A program made the position numbers and the translations under genes. From Paragonimus westermani (Eukaryota > Platyhelminthes > Trematoda > Plagiorchiida > Troglotrematidae), in contig QNGE01002398.1 of assembly GCA_008508345.1 (NCBI GenBank), positions 1-64,000 of the forward strand: DNA of 64,000 nt. The letters run 5' to 3'. The notes below the pieces were generated by a model. It was not told the origin of the DNA. It ran no database searches and worked only from the letters and a program-made list of their open reading frames with translations. Every line of letters starts with the position of its first letter. The first letter of the stretch is position 1. Shown piece after piece: positions 12,850-64,000 of this stretch.

Positions 12850-13988
12850 CAAAAAGGTATCGAATACTCACTTGATCTCCACCCAGGTTTGCTGGAGTTG
12901 CAGAGGGCGATTGGCCAACTGCGCAACGGGAAGGCTGCAGGCGAGGACGGGCTGCCAGGTGAGATCGTGGAGAATGGCGGACCGGCGTTGAGACGCTCTT
13001 AGCTCTGGCTGGTTCACTTCACGGGGCGATGCCCCAAGACTTCAAGGATGCCCTTATCGCACCCTTGTTCGAAGGCAAGGGTAGCAAGCGGTGCGTCGAC
13101 ATCTACCATGCTTCCAGTTTTTTGAATCGTGCAGGCAAGGTGCTTGCCAAAATCCTTCTGAACCGGCTGAAGGTGAACGTTTTGGAGGTGAATGTTCTCG
13201 AGGAGCAGTGTGGAGTCTGGGCGTGTCGGAACACTATCGACCTGGTGTTTGCTGCTGGAGAGCTTTGGGGGAAGTACCGGGGGCTTTTCAGAACGCCGGA
13301 GAGGATGGTGTTGGAGTTGAGTACCGGACTAACGGGCGGCTGTTTAATATATCCGAATTTTCGGCGCCCCAGCCCGGCTGCAAACCTCAAAGATGCTCAT
13401 GTTTCTGTTCACCGATGACAGCGCATTGTTGGCACACAGTGAGGAAGAACTGCAACATCTGGCTACAGCGTTCGCTTCGTCAGCATCAAAGTTTCGATTG
13501 AACAACAACACAGGTAAGACGTTTTCTTTCGTTCAGCCTTCGTCTGTTGGGATGCTGCTTATGTACCTTCACCCCAAATTCACATTACTGGAGACAATGT
13601 GAATTGCTGCGGGGATTTTTGCTACTTGGGTAGCAAATCGTCGACAGATTTGTCCGTGGACCACGAGCTGAGAGCGCGTGTAGCGAAGGCTAATGCTGCT
13701 TTCGGACGTCTTGAGAAGCGTGTCCGGAAGAATCATAGTCTGAAGATGCCCACCAAGCTGTGTGTTCACCGCTCAATTATGCTGTCTATACTGCTGTATG
13801 GCAGTGAGGCGTGGACATTGTACCAGTGGAACGTGAGCTATCTGAGCCGCTTCCATGTGCAATGTCTGAGGCGCATCTTGAATATTTGGTGGTCGGACAT
13901 GATTCCGAAAACTGAGGTGCTTCGGCGAGCGGACATGGACGGGATGGAGGCCATGTCGATGCTGAATGAGCTTCGTTTGCTAGGATGA
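12850..13988 (+). pseudogene. RTE-like reverse transcriptase, internally deleted
   Basis: LRNGKAAGEDGLPGEI near 12,918 is the RT entry motif. Next comes MPQDFKDALIAPLFEGKGSK at 13,029, then AGKVLAKILLNRLK and EEQCGVWACRNTIDLVFAAGEL. The sequence then jumps directly to EYRTNGRLFN near 13,318, so the palm blocks carrying the first catalytic Asp and the QGC motif are missing. FTDDSALLAHSEEELQHL at about 13,402 is the FADD box with Ala changed to Thr. FCYLGSKSS and ILLYGSEAWTLY (13,599-13,988) are the usual post-palm blocks. It is a dead fragment. The deletion point near 13,285 is inferred from family layout. Confidence 0.8.
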
Positions 13989-14400: not shown

Positions 14401-16102
14401 GCAGGTAGGTCATACAAGCGTATCCATTCTACCCTTGTTAACGAGTGCATCGGCCAACAGCCTGGTCGCTGACAATTAATCCGCTCTTCTTTCCGAAGAC
14501 TTCAGTGTTTGCGGTCCTCTATCCAATCTTTTCTTCGACTTTGTTGGTGTATTTTATGAGGAATGGTTTGCCTGGCTTCTCATAGTTCAACGGGACTGTT
14601 GTTTTTCATCCTCATCTTCTCTGGGATGCACCAACCTGCACTCATATACTGCAATGCTTCTTGTATTTCGCTTCACAAATCTTTCGTTTCAGTGTAGATC
14701 TCGTCATTGCAGCCTCTCTCTGTTTAGTTTCCGAGAGATAAGAGTTTCCCTTCCTTAATAGCCAATCAACTGGCCAACCAGCATTGGCCGGCTGGACAGA
14801 AAGGCCCCACTGGCATACCTACTGGTCTTATTCTTCCGGGTTTACACTGGATATGTGGTGTTTAGGTGGAACTGCAATTGGTGCAGCGCAAGCTAATTGC
14901 AGTATTGGTTAAGCGCAGGCGTCCTTTGGCCTCAGTCACTGTGAAAGGCTAATCTGGATCCGATGCTGTCAGCCAGCCATCTCTAACTGCCTGTCGTACA
15001 TGATCCGCGTTTTTACGCGTGTGACCGGTGAGTGTAGACGGAACGTTAGCATAGCAAAGCTTATGATTTCCTTTTGCGACGACAAATCTGTTAAGGGAAC
15101 CCATCGTTCCAGATGTTGAAGCCGTCTCCGAAAATCTGTCGACCGAATGCCATAGCGCCAGCACGCGTTATAACTTATTGTTTTTCAACAGTAAATCAAT
15201 AACAGCTACACATTCTCGTCGATCACCCGAAAAAGCTGTGGGCTGGTAACACCCAGTCCACTGAGATAACATGTGTGGGCTTCATTTACGTTTCTAACAT
15301 CCGCTGATCATCTACTTTGCACATGATCCTCGAGAAAACCGTCAAAGACTGGAGACAATCAGGCGATCTTCGATCAATGAACAAGGCAACCGTACAGAGC
15401 AGACACATAATTCCACACTTCTATAACTTCTATAGAACAGTATGGAAGGAAAACACTTTGTAATATGCACTTGCTGGTGGCATAACACTAAATTTCAGTG
15501 GTTCTCGATGGCCCAGAAACACTTTTAGTTACCGTTGCGGTCATTCTGTAGACTGGCCCAGTCATCGGAACTGCGACATCTGCTGAAACAAAGAACGAAA
15601 ATGTAGCTGAAATAAAAGAGTCGTTTATTTATGTGGCAGGTTAAAGCGCGCCCAGACAGAACCATGGAAAGCACAAATGTAAATTGTTGATAAACCGGAA
15701 AGTGTGGATCGCTTGCACGATCCACGTCGCCGTTTGGTGAAATAATATTCAATCTATCACAGTTATCTCGCTCCACAACCCATGAGGGGGAGCGGCAAGG
15801 ACAAAGACGGAACCTAACGAGCAACATCATGATCACGTAGGAAGGGTGCGATAGCACAGCGAGCTGTGAAACCCCGAACACCTGTAGATGAACGCAAATC
15901 GTGCAACTTAGAACTTCCAGCATTTAAGCAAAAGGACGTCTGTTAAGATAATTTTCTATTCGCCGGTCAGCATGATAGTTAAATCTCGTTATGCGGTCGC
16001 CACACTTGCAGGTTTTATTGGCTCTGCGGATGGATTACTTAACGGATGGGTTAACTGCTTAGATAACACTAAATGGTCTACCAAACTTGGTGGTATTTAG
16101 TG
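14401..16102. other. No recognised gene
   Basis: No domain, tRNA or repeat was recognised. The longest frame is 132 codons at 15,525-15,923 (-), cysteine-rich with hydrophobic stretches, and shows no family signature. Some of the first 500 bases may be the 3' tail of the RTE-like element. Confidence 0.4.
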
Positions 16103-16320
16103 TGAGGTTACTGGCCCTCTGTTTACCGGGCTAGTGTGACACACATGGAAGTCGGTGTGCGAATTCCGGCTCGAACGAGGATGTGTGCCACTAATGAGCT
16201 CAAATGGGAGCAAACCTCGAGTTTAGTGCTTTCTTATCAAGTGGGCCGGTAAAAGGGCTCATCTGAACGCAACAACGACAATCGAAAGTAAGCGATGTTC
16301 ATTTAAAAAGTTGAGAAATC
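16103..16320 (+). mobile_element. tRNA-derived SINE with hammerhead-like motif, copy A
   Basis: A plus-strand copy of a SINE family with four members in this window. The tRNA-like head starts TGAGGTTACTGGCC, and its B-box region reads GTGCGAATTCCGGCTC; both are more decayed than in copies B and D. The hammerhead-like block is at 16,187-16,229. The body that follows matches the family up to about 16,315. This is the most diverged copy. The 3' limit is approximate and no target-site duplication was found. Confidence 0.7.
16187..16229 (+). ncRNA. Degenerate type I hammerhead ribozyme motif, SINE copy A
   Basis: Core box CTAATGA at 16,191-16,197 has the invariant G changed to A. Stem II is GCTC (16,198-16,201) with GAGC (16,208-16,211). 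The GAAA box has lost its G (AAA at 16,212). Stem III and the cleavage triplet end in GTT at 16,221-16,223. The 3' stem I strand TAGTGC (16,224-16,229) is the exact complement of the family's 5' strand GCACTA, which is itself damaged in this copy. It is predicted inactive. Confidence 0.6.
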
Positions 16321-16574
16321 TAACTTTTCTAGCAAATAAACCAAGAAATTCTGCTGGAATCTCTTGTTCTAACACCGCTCTACACAACTGTCTTGACAGT
16401 CTGGTCCAGGCGCGGATTCGTAGTGCACGAACGTTATTCTTTCCTCTGCAGGAGAAGCAACAAAATGAAATACAGTTAAGATGTATGTCGTACAGTATTG
16501 CTTCTAGTAGCTCATGGACTTTTACTTGATAATCGTCTGGAAGTCCTGAACTACCGGTAATACTGGGTTTAATT

Positions 16575-16779
16575 TCGAATTGACCATCACTCACATTCGA
16601 TCGCAGCCTTCGCATCCAGGTAGACCTTGCAGCCAGCCTCTTTCGAAAAGAAGCATTAGACTCAAGTTTAACTCTGATTAGAGCTCGTCAGTAGTGCATA
16701 TTCTTACCACGGCCGGGATTTGAACTCCGGCCATTCCAATCATGAGGCAACCGTGTTAACCGCTGCGCCATTGACCTCA
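16575..16779 (-). mobile_element. tRNA-derived SINE with hammerhead-like motif, copy B
   Basis: Reads right to left. The tRNA-like head begins at 16,779 and has a good RNA polymerase III A box (TGGCGCAGCGGTTAAC, about 16,756-16,771) and B box (GGAGTTCAAATCCC, about 16,716-16,729). The hammerhead-like block follows at 16,653-16,697, then a body ending near 16,575. The plan resembles schistosome Sm-alpha repeats, which also pair a polymerase III promoter with a hammerhead. The head abuts the N at 16,788, and copy C lies inverted on the other side. Similarity to other sequence beyond 16,575 was not seen. Confidence 0.85.
16653..16697 (-). ncRNA. Degenerate type I hammerhead ribozyme motif, SINE copy B
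   Basis: On the minus strand, from 16,697 downward: stem I strand GCACTA, core CTGACGA, stem II GCTC with GAGT around the six-base loop TAATCA, then TAAA in place of GAAA, stem III C and G around a TTGA loop, cleavage triplet GTC, and stem I strand TAATGC (one C-A mismatch). The total is 45 nt, with every element in hammerhead order. Loss of the invariant G in GAAA predicts an inactive copy. Confidence 0.7.
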
Positions 16780-16788
16780 TATCAGGCN

Positions 16789-16935
16789 CGTGGCAAGAAT
16801 ATGCACTACTGATGAGCTCCAATGAGAGCGTAACTCGAGTCTAATGCTTCTTTTCAAGATAAGCTGGCTGTAAAGTCTGTCTGAATGCGAATGCTGCAAT
16901 GGAAAGAGTGATGGTCAACTTTAAAAAAAGACTAA
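16789..16935 (+). mobile_element. tRNA-derived SINE, copy C, head missing at the N
   Basis: The copy begins at the tail of the tRNA-like head (GTGGCAAGAATATGCACTAC) directly after the N at 16,788. It continues through the hammerhead-like block (16,803-16,847) and the full body to about 16,930, ending in an A-rich stretch at 16,923-16,929. It is inverted relative to copy B, so the two form a near-palindrome about the N. The missing head may be an assembly effect rather than a real 5' truncation. Confidence 0.8.
16803..16847 (+). ncRNA. Degenerate type I hammerhead ribozyme motif, SINE copy C
   Basis: The best preserved copy. Stem I GCACTA (16,803-16,808) pairs with TAATGC (16,842-16,847), five pairs and one C-A mismatch. 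Core CTGATGA is intact (16,809-16,815). Stem II is GCTC (16,816-16,819) with GAGC (16,826-16,829), loop CAATGA. Then GTAA (16,830-16,833) stands where GAAA is required. Stem III is A-T plus C-G around loop TCGA (16,835-16,838), and the cleavage triplet GTC ends at 16,841. A single core change (second base of GAAA) separates it from a complete minimal hammerhead. This tiny-stem-III form is known from retroelement-associated ribozymes. Confidence 0.75.
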
Positions 16936-17605
16936 ATCTCCGACTTATCATCAATAATCTAGTATACTGGGTTTCACGAGATAACTTTTTGCGTGAAGAT
17001 GTGCAACCCACACATTTACCTCAAAAATACATACAACGCCTTGTACAATAACGATATTACAACTCTCAAGCTGGTATAACACACGAGGGTATAAGCAGGT
17101 AATTTCAATTTTCAAACCGGCTTGTCACTGCCAGTTCAACAGTCTTAGTAGGCTCGTTGCACGTCCAGGTAGCCGCTGATTGTCAGACGACTTGATTCTA
17201 CGTCTTTCAGGCGTGAGAATGAAATTATGCACTCACATCTGGGAACACTCTGAAGGTAAATTCATGTGAGAATTAGTTGTATGCTGGGCAAAACGGAACT
17301 GAACATGAATGTAAATAATGTGTGTAGATGTAGCTCTGCGTGCATATCGTTTTTTCCATTATAAACTCATCAGGTGTGTGATATGGGAGGGAAATATTTG
17401 AAGCAACCACGGTGCTCCACAGCAGTCGCGACCCCAGAAAACTGGCAGAACTGCAAAATTCAACACATACATGAGACGCGCAATACACTCGCCATGCAGT
17501 TTGTGAGAATGTGAAAAAGTGCAGACAAATATGATACAACCGCGGAAGTGCGTTTCGACGGAGGTGTATGTGCACTGTGGAGCACTTTGATCACGCCCAT
17601 CTTAC
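16936..17605. other. No recognised gene
   Basis: No motif was recognised. A frame of 100 codons at 17,273-17,575 (-) is rich in His, Cys and aromatic residues and lies downstream of the speculative exon on that strand, where it would be intron. Confidence 0.4.
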
Positions 17606-17956: not shown

Positions 17957-19401
17957 CTAGAATGAAAAATGTATAGGGGAGATGTGATGAAGCGACCTAG
18001 TAATCTTTCGATTAAGCAAACTCTTCATTTTGCTCTGCAAACCATCGTGGATACGTTGCAAGAATTCCGCAAATTTTCTTATCAAATTTTCGAGTCAAAA
18101 CTGCTGTGACAGAGGCAGCAGAGAGGCAACAGCCAAGGGACCCGTACTTTTGATACCTTAGTGACCGCACCGGGATACATTTCATAAAGCTAAATGACAG
18201 CCGGTTTCCAGCCGACCATTCACAGATTTTGCTAAAGTAGGACTAAAGTCGGTAGCCATCCAGAGTGTCAGTTACGGAAGATTAAATTTTCGTCTCACTA
18301 GCGAGTATCAAATAACCAAAATGCATGATGTGAGCGAAGTCGCTAAGGAGCATGGGGGAACGTAACAGGTGTTACCTCGGGTCTCGTGACGCAATACCAG
18401 ACGCTAGACGAATGTTGGAATGTTCACTGGGAACGCCGGCAGTTCACGACATACCACAAAAATCGTCTCCCCGATGTTCGCATCTACACTGAACGAACAT
18501 TCAAGTTCGAATTACGTCTTCGCCATGATCAATCTACTTTACCACACCACAAGATATGTATATCTCAAATGACAAGCTGCTACGTTTTCTTTGTTCAGTG
18601 AATGGTGATGACCGTTTCTTGGGTGAACATATGTGGTGAATTTACTTGCATGGATCCGAAACGGAGGTTTTGTGGTGGAAAATTGGTGGCAACACACAGG
18701 CGGCTCAAACAATCTCTGTTCTGACCGACCTCATCAATACTGTGAAGCCCCTAAACTCCCAACCACCCTAATGAATCGAGTCCAACCGGACCGTTGAGAT
18801 CACCTAACAGTAACAGTCGGTCAGTCACACATGTTTAGTGGACTGTGGTAAACAGATAAACAGAGAATCGACTCGAAACATCGGTCCTCAGTGATAAATT
18901 TGAAAATGATTACAGTAGCACGGCGATAGTCCGTTTGCGTCTCGTCGATTGCTTTTGTGAAGTTAACACACACGTTGTATAGCGGGGAGCAAGCAGCCAG
19001 GCGAAGTCGACCTAGTCGTGTCTGAGGCAGTCACTTGGGTGACTGAAGCGGAAACGGCAAGATGCAGCTGAAGCATACCCAACAGCAAGGAACGTGAATT
19101 GCTGTGAGTCGAAAGGGTAATGGGAGACCCTGAAGAGGGATGCTGTTAAAATCTATCCGGACCGGATGAAGGGGATAAGGTATGATTGGAAAATCTATGC
19201 AAATCCACCAGGATTTAAAATAACTTACGTCGGTTTACGTTGGTTGGAGGGATAAGGCAAAAAGGATCAAGAAATGATGGAGGAGTTCATCGGTTGTCAA
19301 ATTTTATGACAGAAATACAGCGGTCTCAAAACTCGGGAGTTTAGGAAATACGATGGTCAAAGAATACCGCTTACGTTCACACCGGCATAGCGATAGGTTA
19401 G
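17957..19401. other. No recognised gene
   Basis: Nothing recognised apart from a perfect 7-bp hairpin CAGTCAC/GTGACTG with a TTGG loop at 19,028-19,045. It is too small to interpret. Confidence 0.4.
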
Positions 19402-20110
19402 TCACCAGCTGTTTCTGGGCACACGAAGTGAGATTCCGCCCATGTATCGAGATAGGTTCCTCAACATTGAGAACCTGCTTTCATTTGGGTCTGAAGGACA
19501 ATGAAGGCGGTTTTTGAGCCCACTGCGCGCCCAGTCTGTAGAAGGTATCTTGTAGTGAAGCCGACGGCACAACCGACCTCTGGATTCGAAAGCCATTTCG
19601 GTGTGTCCGTCAATATGTGTCGACGTACCTCTTAGTTCTGCCTACATATCTACTTCCACAGACACAATCAAACTTGTAGATTACCCGGAAGACTTCATCT
19701 GGCTGAATTTGATGACCGGTGTCAGTTAAGTGAGAGCCGGTTGTAGATTCCTCAAGCCCACTCCAGAGCTGTCAGGTTGCAACTTCTGTCTCAATCAAAC
19801 ATGTACACAATATCCGATTGAGTTAATGGGGGCATCACACCTTTTTTAAGTATGATTGGAACACGAGCAGTCCATTCAAGTAGACCGACCAGGCGGCGTT
19901 GTATGTGCGTTTGAGCGCTGCATATAAACATCGTTTCATCAGGGCTGGAACATTGTTAATTCTAAAGGGCAGAGTTAGACAGGCAAGCTTGCGAGGAATA
20001 TTAGTAGGCGTGACTCGCTTAGGTTGTGGAGTATAACACTTTTGGACAAACGTTGTGGGTTGACCGTTTCCTACCAGAGCCCAATGCAGTAACATCACTT
20101 CATTTTCCAA
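19402..20110 (-). mobile_element. Penelope-like element 3' end with broken GIY-YIG endonuclease
   Basis: On the minus strand, the frame 20,110-19,835 matches the segment between RT and endonuclease of Penelope-like elements: NGQPTTFVQKC, then LACLTLPFRINNVPALMKRC and LKRTYNAAW, like the conserved LPF/Y...L...LK-x-TYNAA stretch. After stops and shifts, YKFDCVCGSRYVGRTKR (around 19,619-19,672) is the signature start of the linked GIY-YIG nuclease (C-x-C-G...Y-x-GRT-x-R). Then comes THILTDTPKWL with a downstream TGRAVGSKTAF, matching the EH-x-P-x-WL...TGH...AF blocks. The frame is broken between these pieces. No RT palm was found upstream, so the copy is 5' truncated. Confidence 0.75.
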
Positions 20111-23100
20111 CTTGTCCTATTTCAAAATAGTCCAACTCTCTGAAACGGAGTTCTAAAGAAGCCAAGTTTTTAATAACAGTGCATATTTCTTAACGCATAC
20201 GTGAGAAGCAACCTGGCATGCGCGCGTTCGATACAGATAATCACGGGCGCTACAAAACGTTAAGTGCTTAAATAGTACTACAACTGTGAAGTATGCTATC
20301 AAAAAAGGTGTGATCAGAAAAAAGATGACTGTGGTTCACGGAACTTCAACGCACGCGGCAGTGAAGAGTAAACTTTGCTGGTTCTATTGGTCGAAAATTA
20401 TCCATAGGGAGTAAATGCTGTCGTTGGTAGACCGTTAATATGTGAGTTTGGAATATCGTCTAAATGGTAAGGGTAGAATATTATGGAAATTATGAAATGT
20501 GTATATTGCGCTGTGAAAAATATTTTTGTTTCGGCGTGTAAAAGACCTTTATCAAGGGAATTGAGAAATCACGCTGGCTTACTAGTGAAATGGGTTGACG
20601 AGGTAGATGAATTTTCGTGGTTTGTTAAACAGAAGGAGTTAGCAATGATTTACCAATTAGCGTGCACAGTATAATTGTAAACAACTTTCCGTAAACGGGT
20701 GCGTTCGATACTTCGTGAGGCAGGTGTCGACAGTTGATTAGTGCGAGTGTTTGTGATCATCCTCACGTGTAACTAAAGACCACTGCATTTTTCGAGGCCC
20801 TGTGGGTAAGTAGATCAGGCGGCAGATGGAGATCCCTAAACATAATGCGGGTGTAAGTCAGTGTTATCTGCTTGCCGTATATACTACGTACTGCAGTCGG
20901 ATGTGAGTTGATTTGGTATTATGGTAACAAAGAATTTAGCAAGTTTTTGAGGTTACAAAAGGTAGAACTTCATGTTTTCCAAACGACAAATTGGTTAAAC
21001 GGTAGACGAAGCATGCTACCGCATTGAGCCATTCGGGGTAACCCGCTGACATATACGCTTGACGGTCAGCCCATGCACACTCTATAGTCAAAAGGTCACG
21101 AAGTGAAAATGATATTTAAGTGTCGGAATACATTTATTATATGTCCATCATTATCCGGAATATTCCGTCCCAATTTCTGCAACCCCTTTGCTTTCGGTTC
21201 TCTTTCAGTAGAAGTCCCCTTGCTGCGTAAGCGGCACGTAACATGATAGGTGGGGCGTAACTTGCCGTTGGCAGTGAGGTCCGTGCAGTCAGTTGCCGAC
21301 ACGTTCACTCGGACTTGCTTGCATAGAGGTACAACACAAAACTCATCTTATGAGTTATGCGGGTCATCAATCATCAATGGTTCTGCATACGGTTTCCTTT
21401 TATGTTTCACCGTCGAGAGTGGCATAGTTTTTTTGTTCGATGTAACTGAACCAGCATAGTTAATGAAATCATGACGTGCCTGGCGGGGGCGGGGGTGAAA
21501 CTGCTCTGTACACACGGGCAGTGTGATATATCAGCATTATCCCTGTACTCCATATGGAAAGGTAGCTGGTCTTTATCGCGCCGAAAACCATTAATATTAA
21601 CAGGGTCGCCACACTATCCACAGGGCACCGCCAGGTGAAAATTATCACAAGCGTTGTCAGCCGAGAGAGTATATTCTTAACGTACACGTCTACGCTGACC
21701 ACCACCCGGCGGTCACAACCGTGGGTACGCTGCATCTCAAAATCCCAAATGAGCCACTCGCTGTGGGACCAAATTTTACTGATGGCCGTGGCTAATTGGT
21801 CTTTGGGATTAGTGCGCTTCTGTTGTTTACTATTCGCATTCTCCAGACGGTTGTTTTTCGATTTCCGAAGTGAGCAACTGCACATAAGTTAGTTCATGAA
21901 ACTCATTTCTTTCTATCTGATTACTGCAACATCTCGGTTGAACTTTCAAAATTAGTAGACAAAGGTGTTCGCTCACTCTTCTCAGTTAAACAGGTGACGA
22001 TCCAAGTATGGGCTTCTGAATGAATTCCACTGAATGGTGATTATAAGGGGAATCACTTCAAATCACGTGTTTCCTCACGGCACCTAGAACATGGAAATAA
22101 CATAACATTATGTCATATCCAAAGATCACTCGTGCTGCTCGCATTTGGGCTGCCACTTTATCCATCACAAAACGTTCTGACATGTATATGCTTCCCCATC
22201 ACCACCTAGGAAGCTTTGAATAAATGGCGCAGGGAAGTATGCGGGTCGTTCATGACCCATCCCTTATGCAATCAGAGACTGAAGTAGCTTCAGGCTAAAG
22301 CGGCGAATGTGTGGCGGATGAGGATTTACTTGTGGCGTTTGCTCCCTTGCGTGGCATCGACGTTTACCAATTCAAGAAACCGTCTGGATAACTGCACTTG
22401 CTGCCTCCGTGCGTAATATATATGTGTGTCTATTATTGTCATCTTTGATTACACGCAGTACGCCGTTTTCTCTATATGAGTCAGAATTTGTGGCAAATTT
22501 TCTGCTAGCACACTCACTTGTTGCTTGGGGGTTCAACCAATGACGGATGTTGCAAATATTCATGGTCGTCATATAGTTGCCATAAACATCAACCCAGCAA
22601 TTGGTGTGTTTTACTCGAAAAGATGCCTTGAATCGTTTACCTCACTTTCCGTGAGCCGACGATTCGCTGGGTTCGCGTCGTACAGGAAGGCAGTTGTGTC
22701 GTGGTTGTGCTCTGATGTGAAACATTCAACAACCAATCTTGTTTATCTCCCAACCACGTGACAGCATTTATCGCGGGAACTGTTTAGCAGGAAGCGTGTG
22801 AACTTAACTTACTATACAGTGGTGATCCACGGCTCTCGCTTTTACGTCGCTCGCTATTTTTTGCACCGGAACGCCATCCACCAAGTAAGCTCAGCAACGA
22901 TCACACTCACATTATCACATTTCAAGCGCTCACTGTCTGATTTTTGCTTGAACCAAGCACGTACAAAATACTGTAATCCTCCATGTATTTAACCAACCAA
23001 CCCCTAAACTCGCTGAAGCTCAAAAATTCCTGATCCTCGACAACAGCTTTGAACCCCTATAAATAATCCACCACCTAAATGTGCACGCGGGATTAAATCG

Positions 23101-25055: not shown

Positions 25056-26330
25056 TTTTGCACAACGGCTGCAATTACTTTAGGTCCCTCCGTAAAATTT
25101 GTGGACAGAGAGCGATTTTACTGGGCTGGTGGAACGTGTAAAAGGTCTCGCTATCATCAACAGGCAGAAATGGCTTGCACATGTCATATGTACATACATG
25201 TGTCAGAATCTATTGACGCCGGTGAGGCGATTATCATTATACTGTTGGACATGGCAAAGGCTTTTGATCGAGTGACTCATACGCGTCATCTGCTCAAAAT
25301 AGCATCCTTTGGTATACGTGATCCATTGCTTAGCTGGTGCTCTTCATACCTTACAGGCCGCACACAAACGGTGAAATTAGGTGACAATAGCTCAACGCTC
25401 AGACCAGTTACTAATGGGGTGATACAAGGGAGTGTTCTCTGACAGTTACTCTTTCCCAAATATATAAACGCTATATGTGGAGTTATCGAGCATGGCAAAC
25501 TAGTCCTATTCGATGATGATATCAAACTCGTTTACAGCCTCCCTTCTGGCAATCTAAATCCATGTTTAGAAAATATACGGAAGGACCTCATGTCATTAGA
25601 AATTTGGTGTCAAACTTGGCTGATGAAATTTTCAGCCAATAAATTTACTATCGTTGTTTATGGTTGCCGCGTACCAGATGGCTCTATAAAGCTAGACGGT
25701 AACAGCATATCAACCGCCAACTCAGTATGCGACCTGAGTTTACGTTACTCAAAGTCAGACAACTTCGCAGAAAATACGTCGTTTCTAGTCGCTAAGACCA
25801 GAAGGACGATAGGTCACATTAAACACTCTATATTCCTACCTGATGCACGATTACACCTCTATAAACTATGTGTACGACCCCAGTTTGAGTACTGCACGTT
25901 CAAAAATGGCCACCTGCGCAAGTCTGATATGCTAACTCTGGACAGCTTCGAACGTACATACACGAGAGGTATATTGGGTTATCCATCTTCTCTGAGCTAC
26001 AGAGAACGCTGCCGGAAGCCTGCACTCAATCATCTCTGGTTACGCCGACTCAATCTTAACATTTTACTCATGTATAATCTGCTCTATGGCAGTAAACCCA
26101 CCGTCAGCTTCGCGACTAGCGTACACCACAGGCCAAAGTATAACCTCAGAAACTAGGAATTCAACATGGCAGCTCTTAAATACCGGAAAAAACTGCGTTC
26201 AAATTTTTCCCAGTAAAATATTCCTACATTTGGAACAAACTCTCGCATGCAATTAGGTCCAGTGAGAATGTACACTAATTCAAACAAAACCCAGAAGCTT
26301 CTCCAACAATGACGAACGTCATGTCCATTT
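25056..26330 (+). pseudogene. CR1-like non-LTR reverse transcriptase, catalytically dead
   Basis: The plus-strand frames 25,053-25,442 and 25,590-26,156 give LLDMAKAFDRVTH (first catalytic Asp), LLSWCSSYLTGRTQTVKLG, and VTNGVIQGSVL followed by a TGA where a Gly codon is expected. Next comes VLFDDDIKLVYS, the FADD box with Ala changed to Asp. Post-palm blocks SANKFTIVVYGCRVPDG, LYKLCVRPQFEYC and LWLRRLNLNILL follow. The end near 26,330 is approximate. One stop, one frame change and the altered box make it inactive. It starts head to head with the minus-strand copy. Confidence 0.85.
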
Positions 26331-36079: not shown

Positions 36080-36288
36080 AATTCAAGTTAAGCTTACATA
36101 CATTTGATTGTAGCCTTCACATTCAGATAGGCTTTCTAGCCGGCCAGTGTCTTTCGAAAGTAGCAATAAACTGGAGTTTTGCTTTTACTAGAGCTCGTCA
36201 GTAGTGCGTATCCTTGCTACTACCGGGATTTGGACTCCAGTCACGCTTTCACGAGGCAGTCGTATTGACCACTGCGCCATTCATCTCA
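36080..36288 (-). mobile_element. tRNA-derived SINE with hammerhead-like motif, copy D
   Basis: A solitary minus-strand copy 20 kb from the others. The head starts at 36,288 with A box TGGCGCAGTGGTCAA and B-box region GGAGTCCAAATCCC. The hammerhead-like block is at 36,163-36,207 and the body runs to about 36,080. Having a copy away from the cluster shows that the family is dispersed, and that the head-hammerhead-body order is its regular structure. End points are by comparison with copies B and C. Confidence 0.85.
36163..36207 (-). ncRNA. Degenerate type I hammerhead ribozyme motif, SINE copy D
   Basis: On the minus strand from 36,207: stem I GCACTA, intact core CTGACGA, stem II GCTC with AAGC (three pairs, one C-A mismatch), AAAA for GAAA, stem III C and G around a TCCA loop, cleavage triplet GTT, and stem I TATTGC. 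The length is again 45 nt with no indels relative to copies B and C. Change of the invariant G in GAAA predicts inactivity. Confidence 0.65.
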
Positions 36289-37652
36289 CATTGAGTACGA
36301 CCAAATTATGAAATATGAATGCACAACCACGGTCGTTTGTGAACAACGATCGGCTACTTCCAGGCAATATAGGGTTAGCTGTATCCTCAAAGGAAGGAGG
36401 GCAGACACCTGGATAGTTCTTCGTTCTGATTTCTGTCGAACGATCGCACAAATTACGGCGAATACGTTGAGGGTTTAGCGTTAGTCGTCTTTCAGAAAAC
36501 TCGGATGATAGCACTGGCCCGAACTACTGAAAGTTTTCACCGAAAATCCTGTGGCCAATCACACAGCACAGACTAATTATTGGTCAAACTCTGAAGCTCC
36601 GTTAGGTTCCATTTGAGTATACCGATCGCTGTGTTCCATATATTGATCGAGATATCAAAATTTCCTATCGGATTTCTGGGATCCAGTTTAAAAATATTTG
36701 TTAACAGCGCGTGAAAAAATTTGGGGCTTTTTCGTTTCTTCCATTTGTTATTTTCACATCTCTGCGGACTTGTCCAATAAAGATCAGTCCATCCGCAAAC
36801 TATATCACTGCACTGAAACTCGAGTGATGACGCTTGTAACCACCCTAGAGTCCATTATTGTCTCAGTCAGCTGACCAACAGACTTTGCCCGAAGGAAGAC
36901 GGTCGTGTAGGCAAGGTCGTTGTCATCGAGTTGTGGAATTGTGAAAGCCATTATAAAAGTAGAGGTAAGGGAAAGCAACAAGACTCAATATTGGACCTAT
37001 GTGTAGACAGATAGCAAGGATTCAAGCCAACACAGCTAAACGCAACCAAGTAGGTGATAGCGGAGTGGTGAATCGTAAGTGAAACCAGGGGTATAGATGG
37101 ACAACTTTTCATCACTAGAGAATAGAAACGCACTGAAGGCGCAGAGACAACGTTTGACGATCAAGCAGTGCTGCGCAATAATACTACGTCGAAAATAACG
37201 TTAGCTAGAGTGACACTTCCTCACGCACATTGTCGATGCACGTAGAAGAGAACGAATTAACAAGGGTAGAATGAAGAAAGGTAAGTAGCGCGATACTCAG
37301 CCTCTGTCGTACACCCTATCGTCGACATGCCACTGTGTCTCATGTAACGGACAAAGCGCGATGGAAGAACATCGGCCATTTATCATACAGATAAAACGAT
37401 TCTTAAAACGTGTGAGCCATTGTATCGCAACAAGTAGGACATATCATTGAGAACACCGTGAAACAATCTCCACGAACCGTTGAGCCTTACCAACGCAGGC
37501 TACTTTAGGCAACTCCCTCACTTCCACTTTCTTAGCCTGACGCCTTGTAGAAGTTTCGGGACATTCAGTCAAGTGTGTATATTTTTAGGGCAAGCATCGC
37601 AGTTACCTCGCGAGTTCTTGTCCGTCAGGTTTGACTCTGGCGAAATCTGCTG
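36289..37652. other. No recognised gene
   Basis: No recognised domain. This is where the 3' part (integrase, LTR) of the BEL/Pao relic would be expected on the minus strand, but I could not identify either. Confidence 0.35.
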
Positions 37653-48640: not shown

Positions 48641-49530
48641 TAATGGAAAATCTTGTGCCCAAAACAGATATGTCAAAAAGGTATATTGCTATAGAATGTG
48701 AGCGTGAAATCCCTTCGTCAGCGTACATCATTGTTGCGCCTAAAAGCAGACTGCTCAACCAGCCATGCAACTATTGTCCGACTGCCCTCCTATCCTATAT
48801 GTTTAAGATCCTCAAGGTGTTGTTCTCTATCCAAATATTTGGTGTCATGAGCTTTAAACGGTGACGAGTAACATACCTTCTTCTATGGCTGCTCAGGCCC
48901 TAGAAAGCTTCTGATTACTGTGTGAACAATGAAATTATGCTGCCGATAGAGAAGCTGGTGCCTTTTACTTTGACTTCGACAAACCGACTGATCGTGTGGC
49001 TCATTCTCTTTTACTCGCCAAGTTCCGCTGTTGCTGTGTCAGGTGTAGTCATCGCAGCGTGCTCGAATCCTATAGGTCAAGCTGCTGCCGTCTTGTGCGA
49101 ATGAGTACCTCCCTATCCTCCGTCGTAGTCAGCCTCAGCGGAATCTCACAGGGTTTCACCTTGGAGGCACTAATTTTCTCTATCCCCATCAACCACTTGT
49201 CGTTGGCAGCATTATCTTCTCCCATGCTGTTTGTCAGCGACATTAAAATCTGGCATCCATTTCGCAATAGCCTTGGCACTAACAATTTGCAGACTGCTTT
49301 TGCTACCCTTTATCAATGGTCACAAGCAAACCTTATGGAGTTGAACATCAGCAAGCGCAACGTTACGTGTATCAGGCTCATGCACCAGGCCCCCTATTCC
49401 CTCGGCGGAATACCGCTCTATTTTACGGAAAGAGAAGAAAACTCGGCACTATTCTGTCGCACAACCTGTCAAGTTCTGATATTGGGGCTAAAGCCAAATA
49501 AGACAATATTTAACTAGTTGTTTCAGAGCG
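48641..49530 (+). pseudogene. CR1-like reverse transcriptase, broken
   Basis: Plus-strand pieces in order: SSAYIIVAPKSRLLNQPCNY and CPTALLSYMFKILK (48,700-48,864) are the fingers block P-x-PK...NYRPISLLS-x-x-KILE. YFDFDKPTDRVAHSLLLAKF (48,966-49,025) is the first catalytic Asp region. VVSLSGISQGFTLEALIFSI stands for GVPQGSVLGPLLF. SPMLFVSDIKIWHPF is the FADD box with its first Asp changed. WSQANLMELNISKRN and LGTILSHNLSSSD are the post-palm blocks. Frame changes and the altered box show a dead copy. It is cut off about 360 bp before the LTR element. Confidence 0.8.
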
Positions 49531-50205: not shown

Positions 50206-50343
50206 TTTAGGATATATATATATATATCAGTGTATACCTGAGTTCATTTTTTTTCTCCCATCCTCTCATCACTTTTTGGGTGCGTAAATTGTATATATAT
50301 AGTTCATATATATATTTATATCATTTCCATTCGCTCGGTCGCT
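50206..50343 (+). other. Leader with TA-rich tracts, no upstream ATG
   Basis: Contains TATATA tracts at about 50,212-50,227 and 50,291-50,320 and a T8 tract near 50,248. There is no ATG before the gag start, so scanning ribosomes would reach gag first. The gag ATG has G at -3 and +4, a favourable context. Confidence 0.6.
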
Positions 50344-51210
50344 ATGGCCACTAAGGAGGTGAAGTCCGAATTCTCGTCTTCGGTGTCGTTGATCACACTA
50401 GCTGTTCCCGCTTTTGGGGATCTCGACCCAGAGCTGTGGTTCGCTGTGTTGGAAATAGAGTTCGGCAACCGGCGCATAACAAATGACTCAGATAAGTTCT
50501 CGCAGCTTATACCGCGTCTTCCCCGAGATATGCTAACCCTGATTAGTGATATTTTACTGGGGTCGACGACCGATCGTTATGAGTCCGCTAAGCAGACGAT
50601 TCTTAAGGAAACACAGTCATCCGATAAAATGCGTTTGGAACAACTGTTCCAACGACTACAGTTGGGGGACAAGAAGCCGTCGGTTCTCCTTCGGGAGATG
50701 AGACATGTAGCAGGTAAATCGCAGTTGCCTGAGTCATTTTTGCAAGAGTTGTGGATTCAAAGATTGCCTGAGTACACGCAGGGGCTACTTTCCGTGTTAC
50801 CCTCACGTTCGTTAGGCGACCTTGCGGTTTCGGCCGACGCAATACATGAGCGTTTCCGAGGCACAGGGCAGCCAGCAGTAGTTGGGCAAATAGTTAACGC
50901 GAACAGTCCGGCGGATCATTTGTTGGCCACGAAGGACGCCGAAATAGCAAACCTGCGGAAATCACTGGAATGCCGTGAACACAACCCCTCAGAAACAAAC
51001 GCCGAGATAGCTCAGTTGCGGCGTGAACTGGCTGATCTTCGCGCCAGCATTCAGCGCAATAGGTCACCGTCTAGACTTCCTCCAACGCGCGCCCGATCAC
51101 CGCCCGGACTAAAAACTGGCAGTGTTTGTTGGTATCATGAGACGTATGGCGAAAACGCTAGGCGATGTCGATCGCCATGTAGCCATCGTGGTAAAAAGCG
51201 TTTAAACTAG
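50344..51210 (+). CDS. gag: Gag polyprotein
   Basis: A 288-residue Gag that would form the virus-like particle and bind element RNA. The N-terminal two thirds is the capsid-like region: [20 protein letters not shown] at about 19-38, then [34 protein letters not shown] and [17 protein letters not shown], the conserved order for this clade. Residues about 200-240 are charged and heptad-like, and about 238-255 are Arg/Ser/Pro rich. The C-terminus has the Cys-His-Cys-Cys box C262-x2-H265-x9-C275-x3-C279, in place of the usual CCHC knuckle and typical of CsRn1 Gags. The ORF ends at a TAG directly after the slip site. The start is the first ATG after the LTR. Confidence 0.93.
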
Positions 51211-51246
51211 CAGGCCGGCGTGTTCTAGCGACGACAGCCACAGGCC
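51201..51246 (+). promoter_or_regulatory. Programmed -1 ribosomal frameshift site (TTTAAAC + stem)
   Basis: TTTAAAC at 51,201-51,207 is in the phase required for -1 slippage: gag reads T TTA AAC and then TAG, and pol reads TTT AAA C. UUUAAAC is among the most efficient known slippery heptamers. Five bases further on, GGCCGGC (51,213-51,219) can pair with GCC (51,237-51,239) and GGCC (51,243-51,246) with a 3-base bulge, giving a possible stimulatory stem. Pol is in the -1 frame relative to gag, and its open frame reaches back to 51,195. The stem is inference; a pseudoknot could also form. Confidence 0.75.
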
Positions 51247-54200
51247 AGTCAAACAGCAGTCGCCTTTTCTTTCTGAAAGATTTAACCTCCAAAATGCAAT
51301 TCTTAATAGACACAGGGGCAGAGGTCAGTGTCATCCCGCATTCAGTAATGGATGCGCGTTCAGAATCCGGCACTACTCTCCGAGCTGCAAACGGTACGCC
51401 CATTAAAACCTTCGGTCGTCGACTGATGAATTTAAACTTTGGCCTTAGACGCGATTTTCCCTGGGTTTTTCTCGTGGCCGATATTCCTTTCCCTATCGTT
51501 GGTATCGACTTCCTCCGACATTTCGATTTACTGGTCGACGCACGTCGATCACGTCTGATCGATACCTCGACAAAGCTAAACGTTCAGGGTAAGCCATCAC
51601 ACGCGGCTGTGATCAGTCCTATGCTAGCCAATCCTCTAGTTTGCGAGCCTTACGGGAAACTTTTATCCGAATTCCCTCAACTGATCCGCCCCGCTAACGA
51701 ACTGCCGGCCGTGACAACCGACGTTGCGCATCACATTGTCACACGAGGGCCGCCAGTTCGATGTCGTCCACGCCGTTTAGCTCCTGAAAAGCTCAAAATT
51801 GCCCGAGCCGAATTCGAGCATATGCTCCAACTCGGCATTATCCGTCCGTCCAATAGCCCGTGGGCTTCGCCATTGCACATGGTGCCTAAAAAGACTGACA
51901 ACGACTGGCGTCCGTGCGGCGACTATCGAGCGTTGAACAACGCAACCACTCCCGATAGGTATCCAATTCCCCACATTCAGGACTTGACGGCAAACCTGTC
52001 AGGGAAACAGATATTCACAAAAATCGACCTAGTGCGCGCTTACAATCAGATTCCTGTAGCCCCAGAAGACGTCCCAAAGACAGCAGTCATAACACCGTTC
52101 GGGCTTTTCGAATTCTTACGCATGCCGTTTGGTCTGGGCAACGCCGCTCAGACTTTCCAACGTTTTATTCACGACGTGTGTCGCGGGCTGGACGGTGTTT
52201 ATCCGTACTTAGATGATATCTTGGTGGCCAGCTCATCGCAGGAGGAACATTGCGTACACTTGCGTTCATTATTCACCCGGCTGTCGCATCATGGCGTTAC
52301 CATACACCTGGCTAAATGCTCTTTCGGAGCGTCCCGCGTAGCCTTCCTGGGTCATAGTATATCCGCGAGCGGGATAGAACCTCTCCCCGACAAAGTACAG
52401 GCAATAGTGGACTACCCGGAGCCCACATCGTTCAAGCAACTTCGCCGTTTTGATGGTTTAGTGAATTTTTACCGTCGTTTCATCCCTAACTGTGCCTGTC
52501 TAATGCAACCGCTCACCGACCTACTCAGAGGTAAGACACGTTCATTCTTATTCCCAACGGCCGCAAAAATGGCCTTCATTAATTTAAAAAGGGCCATCGC
52601 CAATATAGCATCGCTGTCGCATCACCATCCGTCTGCTCCCTTGGCGCTAAGCGTGGATGCATCAGACGTGGCTGTAGGGGCGGTTCTGCAACAGCAACTC
52701 GGTGCCCATTGGTGCCCGCTAGCCTTTTTCTCTAAACGGTTACAACCTACTGAGTCGCGGTATAGTGCTTTTGGGAAGGAGCTGTTAGCGGTATACCTCG
52801 GCATCCGCCATTTTCGACATGTCCTTGAAGGCAGGGACTTTATCGTATTCACAGACCATAAGCCTCTAACGTATGCGTTACGCTCGACAACGGACAGGTA
52901 TTCCCCCAGAGAGACGAGACATCTGGATTATGTCGCTCAGTTCACGACCAATATTCGTCATATTTCAGGTACTGCGAACCCAGTCGCCGATGCTCTCTCG
53001 CGCATTAATGCTACACTGAGCACGACGGAAAGCTCAGTCGATCTGACGGCAATCGCAGCCGCACAGGACAACGACCCGGAGATAGAACAACTCCGCCGGT
53101 CCAGTTCCCTTAAGTTAGAAAGAGTCCCCATGAATTCCTCCGGTGGTCTGATTATTTGTGACACTTCACAAGGCATTCCTCGTCCGGTTATTCCATTGGC
53201 CTTCCGCCGCCGAATTTTCGATACGTTGCACAACATGTCTCACCCTGGCATACGTTCAACAGTCAAACTGGTCACGCAGCGCTTCGTCTGGCGCAACGTC
53301 AATCGCGACGTCCGCACATGGGCGAAAGCGTGCATACACTGCCAGCGGTCTAAGATCCACCGTCACACGCGTACCCCAGTGGGAACTTTTGCAGCCCCCG
53401 ATGAACGCTTCTATCACGTGCATGTCGACCTGGTCGGACCCCTGCCACCCTCGGATGGGTATACTTACATCCTGACATGCGTAGACAGGTTTACACGTTG
53501 GCCAGAGGCTATACCAATTCCGAATTGCTCGTCGGAAACCGTCGCACGAGCATTCTTAGAACGTTGGGTCGCTCAGTTTGGTTGCCCTGCTGTAGTGACT
53601 ACCGATCGCGGGTCACATTTTGACTTAGCCTTCACTTCACTCCTCAACGCACTAGGCTGTAGTAGAATTCGCACAACAGCTTACCACCCGGCAGCCAACG
53701 GGTTGGTTGAGCGTTTTCATCGGCAGTTGAAAAGTTCACTATCCGCTAGCAACAACCCCTCATGGCACGAGGTTCTGCCACTAGTCTTGTTAGGTATCCG
53801 TAACACGCTGAAGGCTGACCTGCATACCACCCCCGCCCAGTTAGTGTATGGGTGCTCCTTACGTTTACCCGGCGAGTTGGTTGCCCCACGCGCAACGGGA
53901 CCTATCAACTTCGCAGATTACGGCGAGCGGCTAGCCCAACACATGAGGCGACTCCGACCACATCCACCGAGAGAACAGACGACGCCAACGTACGTACACC
54001 CTCGTCTGTCAACTTGTTCTCATGTTTTGGTTCGTGCGGTTACTCCTAGACGACCTTTGCACCCGCCGTATACCGGACCGTTTCGCGTCCTCGCACGCTA
54101 TGCTAAGACTTTCGTGCTGGAACGCAATGGTAAACGCGAGGTGATCTCTATCGATAGACTGAAGCCAGCGTTTATAGAGGTACCCGATAAGGAAACTGGT

Positions 54201-54371
54201 TCGCAAGCAGCAACGCCCTCTTCGGTCGGTACATTACCTAGCGTTGGTACAGATTCGCTTTCAGTGGCGACTCCGCCTGCCTCGACGGGGCCAAGCCCCC
54301 AGAGCAGACGCGGGCGAGATTTGCGGAGGCCAGTGCGATTCGCAGATTACGTGGACGTCCGCCGTATCTAA
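51207..54371 (+). CDS. pol: Pol polyprotein: protease, RT, RNase H, integrase
   Basis: The first ATG is at 51,294 (1025 residues from there), but the family motif [22 protein letters not shown] runs upstream of it, so the start is by frameshift from gag. Numbering from that Met: protease D6-T-G8; RT with [28 protein letters not shown] and YLDD at 305-308; RNase H with [27 protein letters not shown] and NPVADALSR; integrase zinc site H646, H650, C680, C683 and catalytic D712, D771, E806; a GPF-type module near 927; tail ending [15 protein letters not shown]. No internal stop. Oddities: the RT reads [12 protein letters not shown] (usually FLG) and FGLGNAA (usually R or K before NAA); the last integrase gap (34 residues) is one shorter than usual. 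These may reduce activity. Confidence 0.95.
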
Positions 54372-61158: not shown

Positions 61159-64000
61159 GTGCATTTAATGGCGCGGGGCAGTGAAAGCCGTAAGGAAGCT
61201 GTCTCGCTGATGACGCCTTACTCTCACATGCAGCTCGGTTGTTAGTTTGCAAGATGTGGGCACCTCGATGTTGTATATTTGAATACAGGAGTTGTTATTT
61301 CCAGTTGTTAAGCCCCTTCCCATCGCCTTCTTTATTTCTTTATTCCTCTATGGGGTTCACTTTTACTTAGCGGTTTTGTGGCAGTTAAGCATTAGCGTGA
61401 ATCAACGGTACATTACTGCTTATTAGAATGATGAGCACTTTTGTTATTGTAGCTACCAACCACCGTTTCTTTCTCTTACCACCGGAAGTCCTTGGCTTCA
61501 TTATATATATTTCATTCAGAAGCGAGCACAATCCAGGTCACACACACTCGCTTTGAAGTCCGGGAAGATCTTGAGGCCTGACGAACAAAGCGTGTTGCCA
61601 ACATAGAGCGGACGACTTTTACTTGGACCTCTTGAAAGCTTCCCCATTTCATCAGTTTAGCGAGTGATCGGAGACAAAATATCAATCGGTCAACTTGCGC
61701 AGTCTGCGATGAGCCTAATTGTAATCCAAAACGACGCTTGGGACACTCAAATGAGCGTTTCAACCAGAGATCAACGGGTTGTTTGCGCCAGCAATGACGC
61801 CTCAATGCTCTGCTTTTGCTCATCTATCTGTTGGTGTCTTTCTGTCGTCAGAAATTGTTGGGGAAATTCTGTTTTCCCCGAACGAGGTTTATTTTTTCAA
61901 AATATCTTTGAAAAACAATTTGTACTTTTGAGTTCCATCTTTTCGTGCCATAACCTGCCAAAACTTAGGTTTGGCGCACGTTTCTCCTTCTTCTGTGAAT
62001 GACTCATTCCACATTTTATGCACCGATTCAGGTGAGATTCTTCAGGGTATTTCAACGACTCACAGATGGACAGGGAGTAACACAAACTTACTTCAGACAC
62101 CTCGGGTGGCCTTTCTCAGGAATGTTGTAATAGAAATCATATGAATGTGAGTTCAAAGAAGGCCACTCGAGGTGGCTGAAGCGTAGAGTTCCACAGTTCG
62201 CTCATAACTTTTGTTATTCCCAACACATTTATCAGTGGCATGCTGGCCACGACGGCCGATCTGTTTGATTTCCTTTGCGCTGAATTTTGTGCGTGTTTCT
62301 TGCAACTATTCGAAGACTATATGTACGCGAACGTTGGTCCACCATGTTACCATTGATGTGAAAGCAAGTATGTCCTTTTGTGAAGGTCAAGGTCTCCTGT
62401 GTTTTTCTGAAGTTTTGCGTATCGTTACCTTCTGTGCTACATGTTCGTGCTCTGCGTAGGCGTGCGCTAGCTGTTTTTCGTTATTGTTAGCCAGCTGGCT
62501 TTGACAAAAGTAGATGTATCGCTTAAGATCAAGTTCCTGGGACATCATGATGCTATCAATGTATACTAATTTCTTCCTGGCCATTTTCTTAGATGAGGGT
62601 ACGGCCCTGGCCAAAGAGCTAACAGCCGTAGTGCAGTAAATCTAGACTGGCGAAGTCGTCCAAATCGATGGGTTGGGCTAATCGTGTCCACAACTTTTGA
62701 AGAGCTCGTTCACTTCGTGCACAAGTTACAAGGGTATCAACTCGATTCAAGTTGCATCATAGTCGCCTGCAGCCATTGCATTCCGCAGGCTGAGCAGAGC
62801 ACGTGAAATGCATATTTATGGGAAGCAACCTGGTTCTCGCCGTGGCTGTTGCTAAATTGATCAAACCTTAACATTGCGTCTCTAGCTACATACGAGGGCG
62901 ACAATTGTTATTTTTCACTTTGTAGAAGCTTTCAATGTAGCTGGCAAGGATGCACTCGTCAAAAGGTGTGCCCAAGAGGTGTATGAACATCTTGAAAATA
63001 ACTTACTTTCAAACCTTTGGCGTGGCTATCGCCTGTGACAGCTTACCGCTTACTTTAAAAATTTCAAGTGGGATGCAACGAGTTTTTCCAAGCCCCCTTT
63101 AGTAAATAGGTGATCCGTAAAACCAAAAGTGGAACGCTTGCCAGAAAACTTGGAACGTTTCGAACGAAAGCTCAGTATCCAATTTTGCACCAGCCTTGGG
63201 GAGGTTTGTGCGCAACGTCTCCAACGTTCAGCTAGACAGAACTGGTGGAAGCCTTGTCGGTGCGTCTGAAATTTTGCGTTTTCCCATCCTGTATCAACTT
63301 GTTGAAACCATTCCAACAGAATACCACTCAGCCAGTGCTCACTACGAAAACCAGTCGACAACGAAAAACCAAGATCACGCGCGCTGACCCCCGTGTATTG
63401 ATAGTGACCTTCGAAAATAGAGTGCACAGGGAAACAAGTCAAGCCAGTGAGACGTGGGGTGAGTTATGATTCTAGCCCCGGGGCGGATTTCTCAAAATGG
63501 TCAGCTTGACTGAACCAAAGGTGGGATGAAAAATCAATATCGTCGCTAACGTAACAGAATATGGCTACAAAAATTTTATAGGATGTAGTTGCCACGTGCT
63601 CTAGGGGGGTCGGAGCTCAGCCTAGATACTTACTTGACTTTTTCAGCAGCTATCCTAGAAATACAACATACCACTCTGGGAAAATCAAAGAGGATAGTAC
63701 ACCGATCAGTTAAATCAAACGCCCATTAGTCTTTGCTAAATGGGTGACAATTAGGATCCTAGTTGAACTGCTACGAATTTACTGTAGTTAGAATTGAACA
63801 ATGTAGGATAAGGATCGAACGTATAAGAAATGTAATGCACCATCAGGCACAGCAAAACAGGACGAATATTGTTGAATCGTACGTTTTCCACCTGTGCAAG
63901 ATAGTAGCGTAATAAAACAATTGCATAACAAAAGGGGACAAGGCACATCATTCATTTTCACCATATTCACCACACCTTGAATGAGCGTGCGGATATCTGT
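61159..64000. other. No recognised gene
   Basis: Apart from the hairpin at 62,091-62,181, nothing was recognised. Frames at 61,512-61,823 (-), 63,050-63,442 (-, 130 codons) and 62,211-62,459 (+) have no family signature. The first of these, basic with VRSMLATRFVRQ, has a faint Gag-like look that I could not support. Confidence 0.4.
62091..62181 (+). repeat. 27-bp imperfect inverted repeat (91-bp hairpin)
   Basis: The left arm at 62,091-62,117 and the right arm at 62,155-62,181 are complementary at 22 of 27 positions by my count, around a 37-base loop. The outer six bases CTTCAG/CTGAAG and the core CACCTCG/CGAGGTG pair perfectly. No target-site duplication is visible. It may be a small foldback element or the fused ends of a deleted DNA transposon. 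Confidence 0.55.

Follow-up and report, generated by a model that had tools for sequence, protein, structure and literature searches.

A short repeat in Paragonimus westermani appears to be a non-autonomous, retrozyme-like element, a unit of 431 bp that joins a tRNA-like head to a type I hammerhead and is copied in trans by the enzyme of a Penelope-like element (PLE). We give this reading a probability of roughly four in five. The case is drawn from genomic DNA, in which we found an intact ribozyme motif in thousands of copies, a tandem period, two end sites, inverted pairs with one site per arm, target duplications, and PLEs in the same genome.

The starting point was a window of 64,000 nt (contig QNGE01002398.1, positions 1 to 64,000), in which an earlier note had described hammerhead-bearing stretches at four places. 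All four were confirmed. These copies, termed A, B, C, and D, are approximately 72-75% alike, and all are damaged in the hammerhead block; the GAAA-box changes reported for B, C, and D were as described, and A is damaged too. The three separate copies claimed at 16103..16935 were reduced to two insertions. Copy A stands alone, but B and C are two head-to-head arms of one inverted insertion, since a single target duplication (10 bases by script, 11 by eye) surrounds both of them, which rules them out as independent copies. The assembly has an N at 16788, the inner junction of this insertion, and copy C starts at about unit position 87-90. A shared head with polymerase III A and B boxes had been claimed for every copy. 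By strict box patterns B was found to have both boxes and D the A box only, while neither was found in A or in the headless C. A PLE remnant is located approximately 2.4 kb from the B-C insertion.

Features of the window that bear on the 431-bp unit. Unit positions refer to the natural copy L039:591-1021.
Feature	Position	Strand	Details	Basis
Copy A, old copy	16089..16308	+	unit 8-229, 3' end at site a	local alignment to L039:591-1021
Hammerhead block of A	16185-16229	+	decayed	
Left target-site duplication of the B-C insertion	16560..16570	.	ATACTGGGTTT; shares a few bases with the end of arm B	
Copy B, minus-strand arm of the B-C insertion	16566..16790	-	unit 11-235, ends at site a, head present	
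Hammerhead block of B	16653..16697	-	GAAA box is TAAA	cmscan HH9, 21.9 bits, E 0.72
tRNA-like head, copy B only	16717..16770	-	A box 16760-16770, B box 16717-16725	pattern match
Copy C, plus-strand arm of the B-C insertion	16789..16961	+	unit 90-263, ends at site b, headless	
Hammerhead block of C	16803..16847	+	GAAA box is GTAA, CTGATGA intact	cmscan HH9, 30.1 bits, E 0.0016
Right target-site duplication of the B-C insertion	16964..16974	.	ATACTGGGTTT	script and by eye
Penelope-like element remnant	19345..20171	-	C-terminal protein part	nucleotide and translated matches to PLE loci
Copy D, old copy	36082..36351	-	unit 390-431 and on through 1-227, 3' end at site a	
Hammerhead block of D	36163-36207	-	GAAA box is AAAA	cmscan HH9, 26.8 bits, E 0.019

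The tandem unit, which is longer than the repeat described in the earlier note, the arrangement as inverted arms, and the pair of fixed end sites all go beyond that description. Young copies have a unit of 431 bp. The tandem dimers that the note had envisaged were found as exact 431-bp head-to-tail arrays: L039 contains about 3.2 units with 92-99% identity, C1766 six units in 431-bp steps (one of them partial), C2415 three full units, and C223 four full units and one partial. Exact steps of 431 bp were present at several loci in a genome search in which the best 40 of 1,765 candidates were scored. Along the unit the A box is located at position 31 and the B box at 76 (45 bp apart), followed by the hammerhead at 104-148, with a stem III of two pairs and expected cleavage after 142, then TTTT at 152 and an A/C-rich stretch at about 225-262. 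The TTTT just past the ribozyme might terminate polymerase III there. Whereas autonomous PLEs encode a reverse transcriptase and an endonuclease, the unit codes for neither. The boxes prove little alone, because the window held three A-to-B box pairs compared to 1.0 in shuffles. As ARAGORN also called no tRNA, either in the window or in six young-copy loci, we regard the polymerase III head as a putative one, proposed at the level of motifs.

Insertion ends were mapped onto the repeated unit in 51 sources (the window, L002-L040, L064, L066, L069, and L072-L079). Arm matches below 78% identity were discarded, which drops copy D and leaves a piece of copy A, classed as elsewhere; a more tolerant alignment placed the ends of A and D at 229 and 227, respectively. 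Two sites accounted for 78 of the 88 mapped arms, 33 ending at 223-240 and 45 at 244-270, with 10 elsewhere. The modal ends at about 230 (site a) and 260 (site b) are separated by about 30 bp, at distances of 88 and 118 nt downstream of the cleavage site, while the 5' starts are scattered across the unit. Judged by eye, the flanks of 28 3' ends, one of which (L007) stops at unit 425, were mutually unrelated.

The cleavage point was crossed by 72 of the 78 site-ended arms, and a single arm of 87 starts within 140-146, which argues that the template was rarely a linear RNA cut by the ribozyme. Judged from these arms, the copied RNA is either a multimer that was never cut or a circle formed after cleavage. 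The same numbers would be expected if the hammerhead were a relic, so that uncut multimeric RNA is copied and the ribozyme has no part in movement, and ribozyme mutants of PAc, a PLE protein, showed unchanged insertion in vitro (PMC11167929). We consider a relic possible but rather unlikely, since the core has stayed intact in thousands of copies. A circle closed after cleavage would moreover also be copied through its junction, and the data fit multimers and circles alike.

Inverted pairs were found head to head in 31 cases and tail to tail in none. Both ends could be classified in 26 pairs, and 23 of these had one site per arm (13 as 260/230 and 10 as 230/260); 23 or more discordant pairs would have a probability of about 4e-5 if the sites were chosen evenly and independently. 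The three concordant pairs are L036 and L076 (260/260) and L010 (230/230), although L076, concordant by script, has an extra plus-strand piece that ends at 229. Five further pairs (L007, L032, L040, L073, and L075) have one end outside both site classes. The frequency of pairs is biased, as most loci (L002-L040) were drawn using the inverted pair of the window as query. Such a bias would not yield both end orders about equally, as was observed. Among the first places listed by an unbiased pattern search, seven opposite-strand neighbours were seen by eye within less than 600 bp, all minus then plus and thus head to head, together with two same-strand neighbours exactly 431 apart. Eight loci taken from this list contained two pairs that could be classed at both ends, L079 (discordant) and L076 (concordant), and the pair at L066, a locus fetched for its PLE, was discordant. 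In 18 of the 31 pairs the arms overlap at the inner junction by 2-7 bases. Because the positions of these junctions differ between pairs, the pairs look like separate events.

The outer flanks of 22 insertions shared a string of 8.7 bases on average, compared to 4.8 between different loci (maximum 8 in 300), with the boundaries set by hand and the observed search extending inward by 3-4 bases more than the null. The B-C insertion of the window belongs to these 22, its arms reaching 235 and 263 within a single duplication. The shared string was at least 9 bases in 13 of the 22 and at least 8 in 14 (duplications of 8-13 bases), and below 8 in the other 8.

These observations bear on whether the repeat is an ordinary SINE with a tRNA head that owes its copies to a LINE and target-primed reverse transcription, in which case the pairs would result from twin priming or from adjacent SINE insertions. 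Fixed 3' ends and scattered 5' starts do suit target-primed reverse transcription in general, the head has A and B boxes, and reverse transcriptase fragments that we take to be LINE-like are present in the window. However, there are two 3' end sites and not one, both outer ends of a pair are 3' ends of the element at different sites, a single duplication surrounds the pair, and no common, A-rich or repeat tail was seen by eye in the 28 3' flanks. Copying by a LINE is therefore improbable in our view.

The hammerhead was followed through the genome sequence (823,446,929 bases in 9,701 contigs), of which only the best candidates were scored, so that all lists of loci are lower bounds. The earlier note had proposed a genome-wide search for intact cores. 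The core pattern CTGANGAGCTC-N6-GAGCGAAAC-N4-GT gave 2,517 forward and 2,574 reverse exact matches, 5,091 in all, while the same pattern read backwards gave none on either strand. Young copies, found with the window query, read GCACTA-CTGAYGA-GCTC-TAATGA-GAGC-GAAA-C-TCGA-G-TC-TAGTGC with the core intact. Stem I is perfectly paired in them, which is not so in the window copies. They have the core and stems I-III of a type I hammerhead that is open at stem I, and are predicted ribozymes. The consensus of 48 distinct copies retains GAAA, and the suggestion that the window copies, as members of a SINE-like family, decayed independently from a working ancestor is supported by the existence of core-intact young copies.

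In the alignment of the 48 copies 96.5% of 576 stem cells were paired, a figure favoured by design as the structure was derived from the same sequences; 8 of 500 shuffles were as high. Pairing fell to 11-54% when the partners were slid by 1-3 columns. Of 67 columns, N7 alone had a conservation below 70%, and N7 is the core base that is left free in hammerheads. Compensatory changes in the stems, which the note had looked to as a sign of a real structure, were not above chance: one of the 576 cells had changed on both sides, and 267 of 500 shuffles were as high. The covariation score of the stems was likewise equalled by 40 of 500 shuffles. This test is weak because the sampled copies are young, with a mean column identity of 94%. 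Rfam gave no match anywhere in the window at gathering scores. At a permissive threshold its hammerhead matches there were B, C, and D only, all to RF02275 Hammerhead_HH9, with 21.9-30.1 bits compared to a gathering score of 52; A was unmatched. A coincidental match within a SINE body, for which one might cite the damage in every window copy, the lack of Rfam matches at gathering scores and the lack of excess compensatory change, has next to no probability, as chance likeness is ruled out by 5,091 intact cores against 0 in the control and is further contradicted by the perfect stem I of the young copies, unlike that of the window copies, and by tandem repeats of retrozyme size.

The enzyme class assigned to the proposed copying in trans, PLE, is supported by the insertion scars, which resemble those of PLEs described in the literature. 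With PAc, both strands of the target are cut and extended, and reverse transcription begins within the RNA at two neighbouring sites, usually 111-118 into the ORF, in a stem loop rich in A and C; its hammerhead cut lies 26 into the ORF, and the sequence between the start sites corresponds to the genomic tail of 30-40 bp (PMC11167929). By subtraction the PAc start is 85-92 nt past the hammerhead cut, compared to 88 for the first site of the unit, and both are A/C-rich. The A/C-rich hairpin at the first site of the unit was not significant (z 0.26 for 61 nt and -0.93 for 120 nt); a PLE counterpart had a z of -2.29 (110 nt). Rotifer Penelope copies are described as having a 31-bp tail that is optional on one inverted repeat and as lying most commonly head to head; their duplications measure 8-10 bp, and in one case Penelope repeats enclose a copied host gene (PMC3846280). 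The 431-bp unit shows the same insertion product, with about 30 bp between the sites, a tail on one of the head-to-head arms and short duplications, and it shares tandem units and head-to-head inverted arms with the PLEs of the literature.

PLEs are abundant in the same genome. With a query assembled from Penelope-type motifs, all 106 scored candidates (of 8,979) matched, the best with an E-value of 1.7e-56, and the PLE reading frames flagged at 18 loci are 610-962 codons long. Eight PLE ORFs could be aligned, with 26-42% identity to the first, and contain reverse transcriptase motifs and a C-terminal motif, Y..C.C...Y.G.T.R.L..R..EH, which we take to be GIY-YIG. Pfam RVT_1 was above the cut-off in four of four PLE proteins, and GIY-YIG was matched in one of the four, below the cut-off (E 0.023). 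A genome-wide Pfam search for GIY-YIG (best 150 of 281 candidates scored) returned one match, presumably host SLX1, and was discarded as a PLE lead.

One PLE family, that of L069, appears from its match ends to follow the same end grammar as the unit. Among the best 40 of 2,520 candidates, its matches ended (by eye) at about ORF +107 to +122 and +164 to +174. In L057, L068, and L069 alike, one outer end falls at +114-119 and the opposite one at +167-170, and the flanks share strings of 14, 12, and 16 bases, respectively. One site per side was also seen by eye in seven loci (C910, C510, C917, C3567, C4801, C5088, and C2605), of which C3567 is L068 and some are short PLE-derived arrays; C910 and C510 appear to be duplicates of a single locus. 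In the L069 family about 50 bp separate the two sites, compared to about 30 in the unit. Outside this family, a convincing duplication was absent at four PLE loci (L059, L060, L062, and L065).

A sampled PLE as the sequence parent of the unit was rejected, as no similarity beyond noise was found. Among 18 PLE loci, representing few families, 15 were not above the best of 20 shuffles; L059 (26 vs. 24) and L063 (21 vs. 18) were barely above, and L064 scored because a copy of the unit adjoins its PLE. No canonical hammerhead was found by pattern in 12 + 18 PLE loci, the two matches in L066 being copies of the unit, or by Rfam in 8 + 8 PLE loci. Near the start of the PLE frame in L057 and L069, CTGATGA, a 5-bp hairpin, and GAAAC were seen by eye in hammerhead order. 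This motif was rejected as a hammerhead because the hairpin is surrounded by extra bases and stem I lacks a partner strand; it is perhaps a decayed or variant ribozyme.

Other elements were observed alongside the unit. The 5' region of the L069-type PLE has given rise to short tandem arrays of about 458 bp, with inverted pieces between the units, at C483:208278-209801, C4801:33226-35501, and elsewhere; these are apparently a second non-autonomous, PLE-derived repeat family. L070 (C5671) has two PLE reading frames head to head in a 2.3-kb inverted repeat, given as 100% identical. A hairpin at 62085-62304 of the window has a weak miRNA-family match on both strands; it is probably a PLE-derived palindrome and not a miRNA, since 62092-62304 matches the PLE loci L042, L054, L062, and L063. 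The window also contains a Ty3/Gypsy-like element at 50242-54371, with a 322-aa frame followed by an open 1058-aa frame. Among the 120 matches listed for the Gypsy ORF the named relatives were mostly from flatworms, a few carrying bacterial labels; Dicrocoelium matched with 67% and Sparganum with 53% over 82% of the query, and further matches were to Schistosoma, Trichobilharzia, Spirometra, and Clonorchis. Reverse transcriptase-like reading-frame fragments seen by eye at 12963-13988, 25443-26156, and 48933-49517 are probably LINEs.

The combination of a hammerhead and a tRNA head is already known from flatworms. The accessible text on the schistosome repeats Sm-alpha and Sj-alpha describes them as SINE-like, with a hammerhead and a tRNA head (PMC2770079, PMC8490949, PMC4918200), and the tandem satellite repeat of Sm-alpha as 335 bp (PMC8490949). 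As far as these descriptions go, the unit resembles them in having a type I hammerhead in a short flatworm repeat, a tRNA-like head, a high copy number, and a tandem form. It differs in length (431 bp compared to 335 bp), the comparison being one of architecture alone. The two-site ends and inverted arms of the unit are absent from the Sm-alpha descriptions in the available parts of these three papers. The earlier note had proposed a related SINE/ribozyme family. The relationship holds for the architecture and not by sequence, and the label SINE is only partly apt, since the polymerase III head is recognised by motif, and the ends resemble those of Penelope-like elements.

Metazoan non-LTR retrozymes are presented, in the accessible text of PMC7229834, as non-coding tandem repeats of 150-450 bp with a type I hammerhead and target duplications of more than 4 bp; platyhelminths are named among the hosts of retrozyme-like repeats, small circular RNA is given as a hallmark, and circles are the favoured form for published retrozymes. 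To the extent of that text, the unit agrees in its type I hammerhead, in a tandem length that falls within this range, and in duplications of more than 4 bp (at least 8 bases in 14 of 22 insertions), and adds a tRNA-like head and PLE-type insertion ends. Hammerhead retrozymes have been described in numerous animal genomes. PLEs or LINEs have been proposed as the copiers of retrozymes, and not demonstrated, according to the parts available of PMC7229834, PMC7761336, and PMC11722881. Among the matches listed from the open-licence literature, no title or abstract, as far as these were available, described PLE-type ends on a retrozyme or a SINE. What appears to be new is a retrozyme-like or Sm-alpha-like element with the insertion grammar of a PLE.

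Altogether, these observations are compatible with the following course of events. Units would be transcribed, perhaps by polymerase III or by read-through, and the multimeric RNA would cleave itself, after which a host ligase may close circles. The reverse transcriptase-endonuclease of a PLE would act in trans and open both target strands, with reverse transcription beginning inside the RNA near unit 230 or near unit 260. A pair of cDNA arms, as a rule with one arm per site, would then be joined head to head, in many cases where they have a few bases in common. What remains would be two inverted arms, one of them with a 30-base tail, and a short duplication of the target.

A broader proposal, on which we would put even odds, is that a tRNA-headed SINE is mobilised by a PLE instead of a LINE and carries its own two-site PLE start region beside the hammerhead, that the same may hold for Sm-alpha and the metazoan retrozymes, and that, as the near-strict rule of one site per arm suggests, both target strands are primed by a dimer of the PLE protein whose subunits use different start sites in the RNA. 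SINEs as a rule depend on LINEs, and a tRNA-headed short element copied by a PLE would fall outside this dependence. The one-site-per-arm pattern would at the same time constrain how PLEs integrate. Insertion scars record the enzyme that made them, and a PLE-type scar makes the proposed mobilisation by PLEs testable in any genome with retrozymes, e.g., that of S. mansoni. If the PLE reading were true for Sm-alpha and the metazoan retrozymes, it would settle who copies them.
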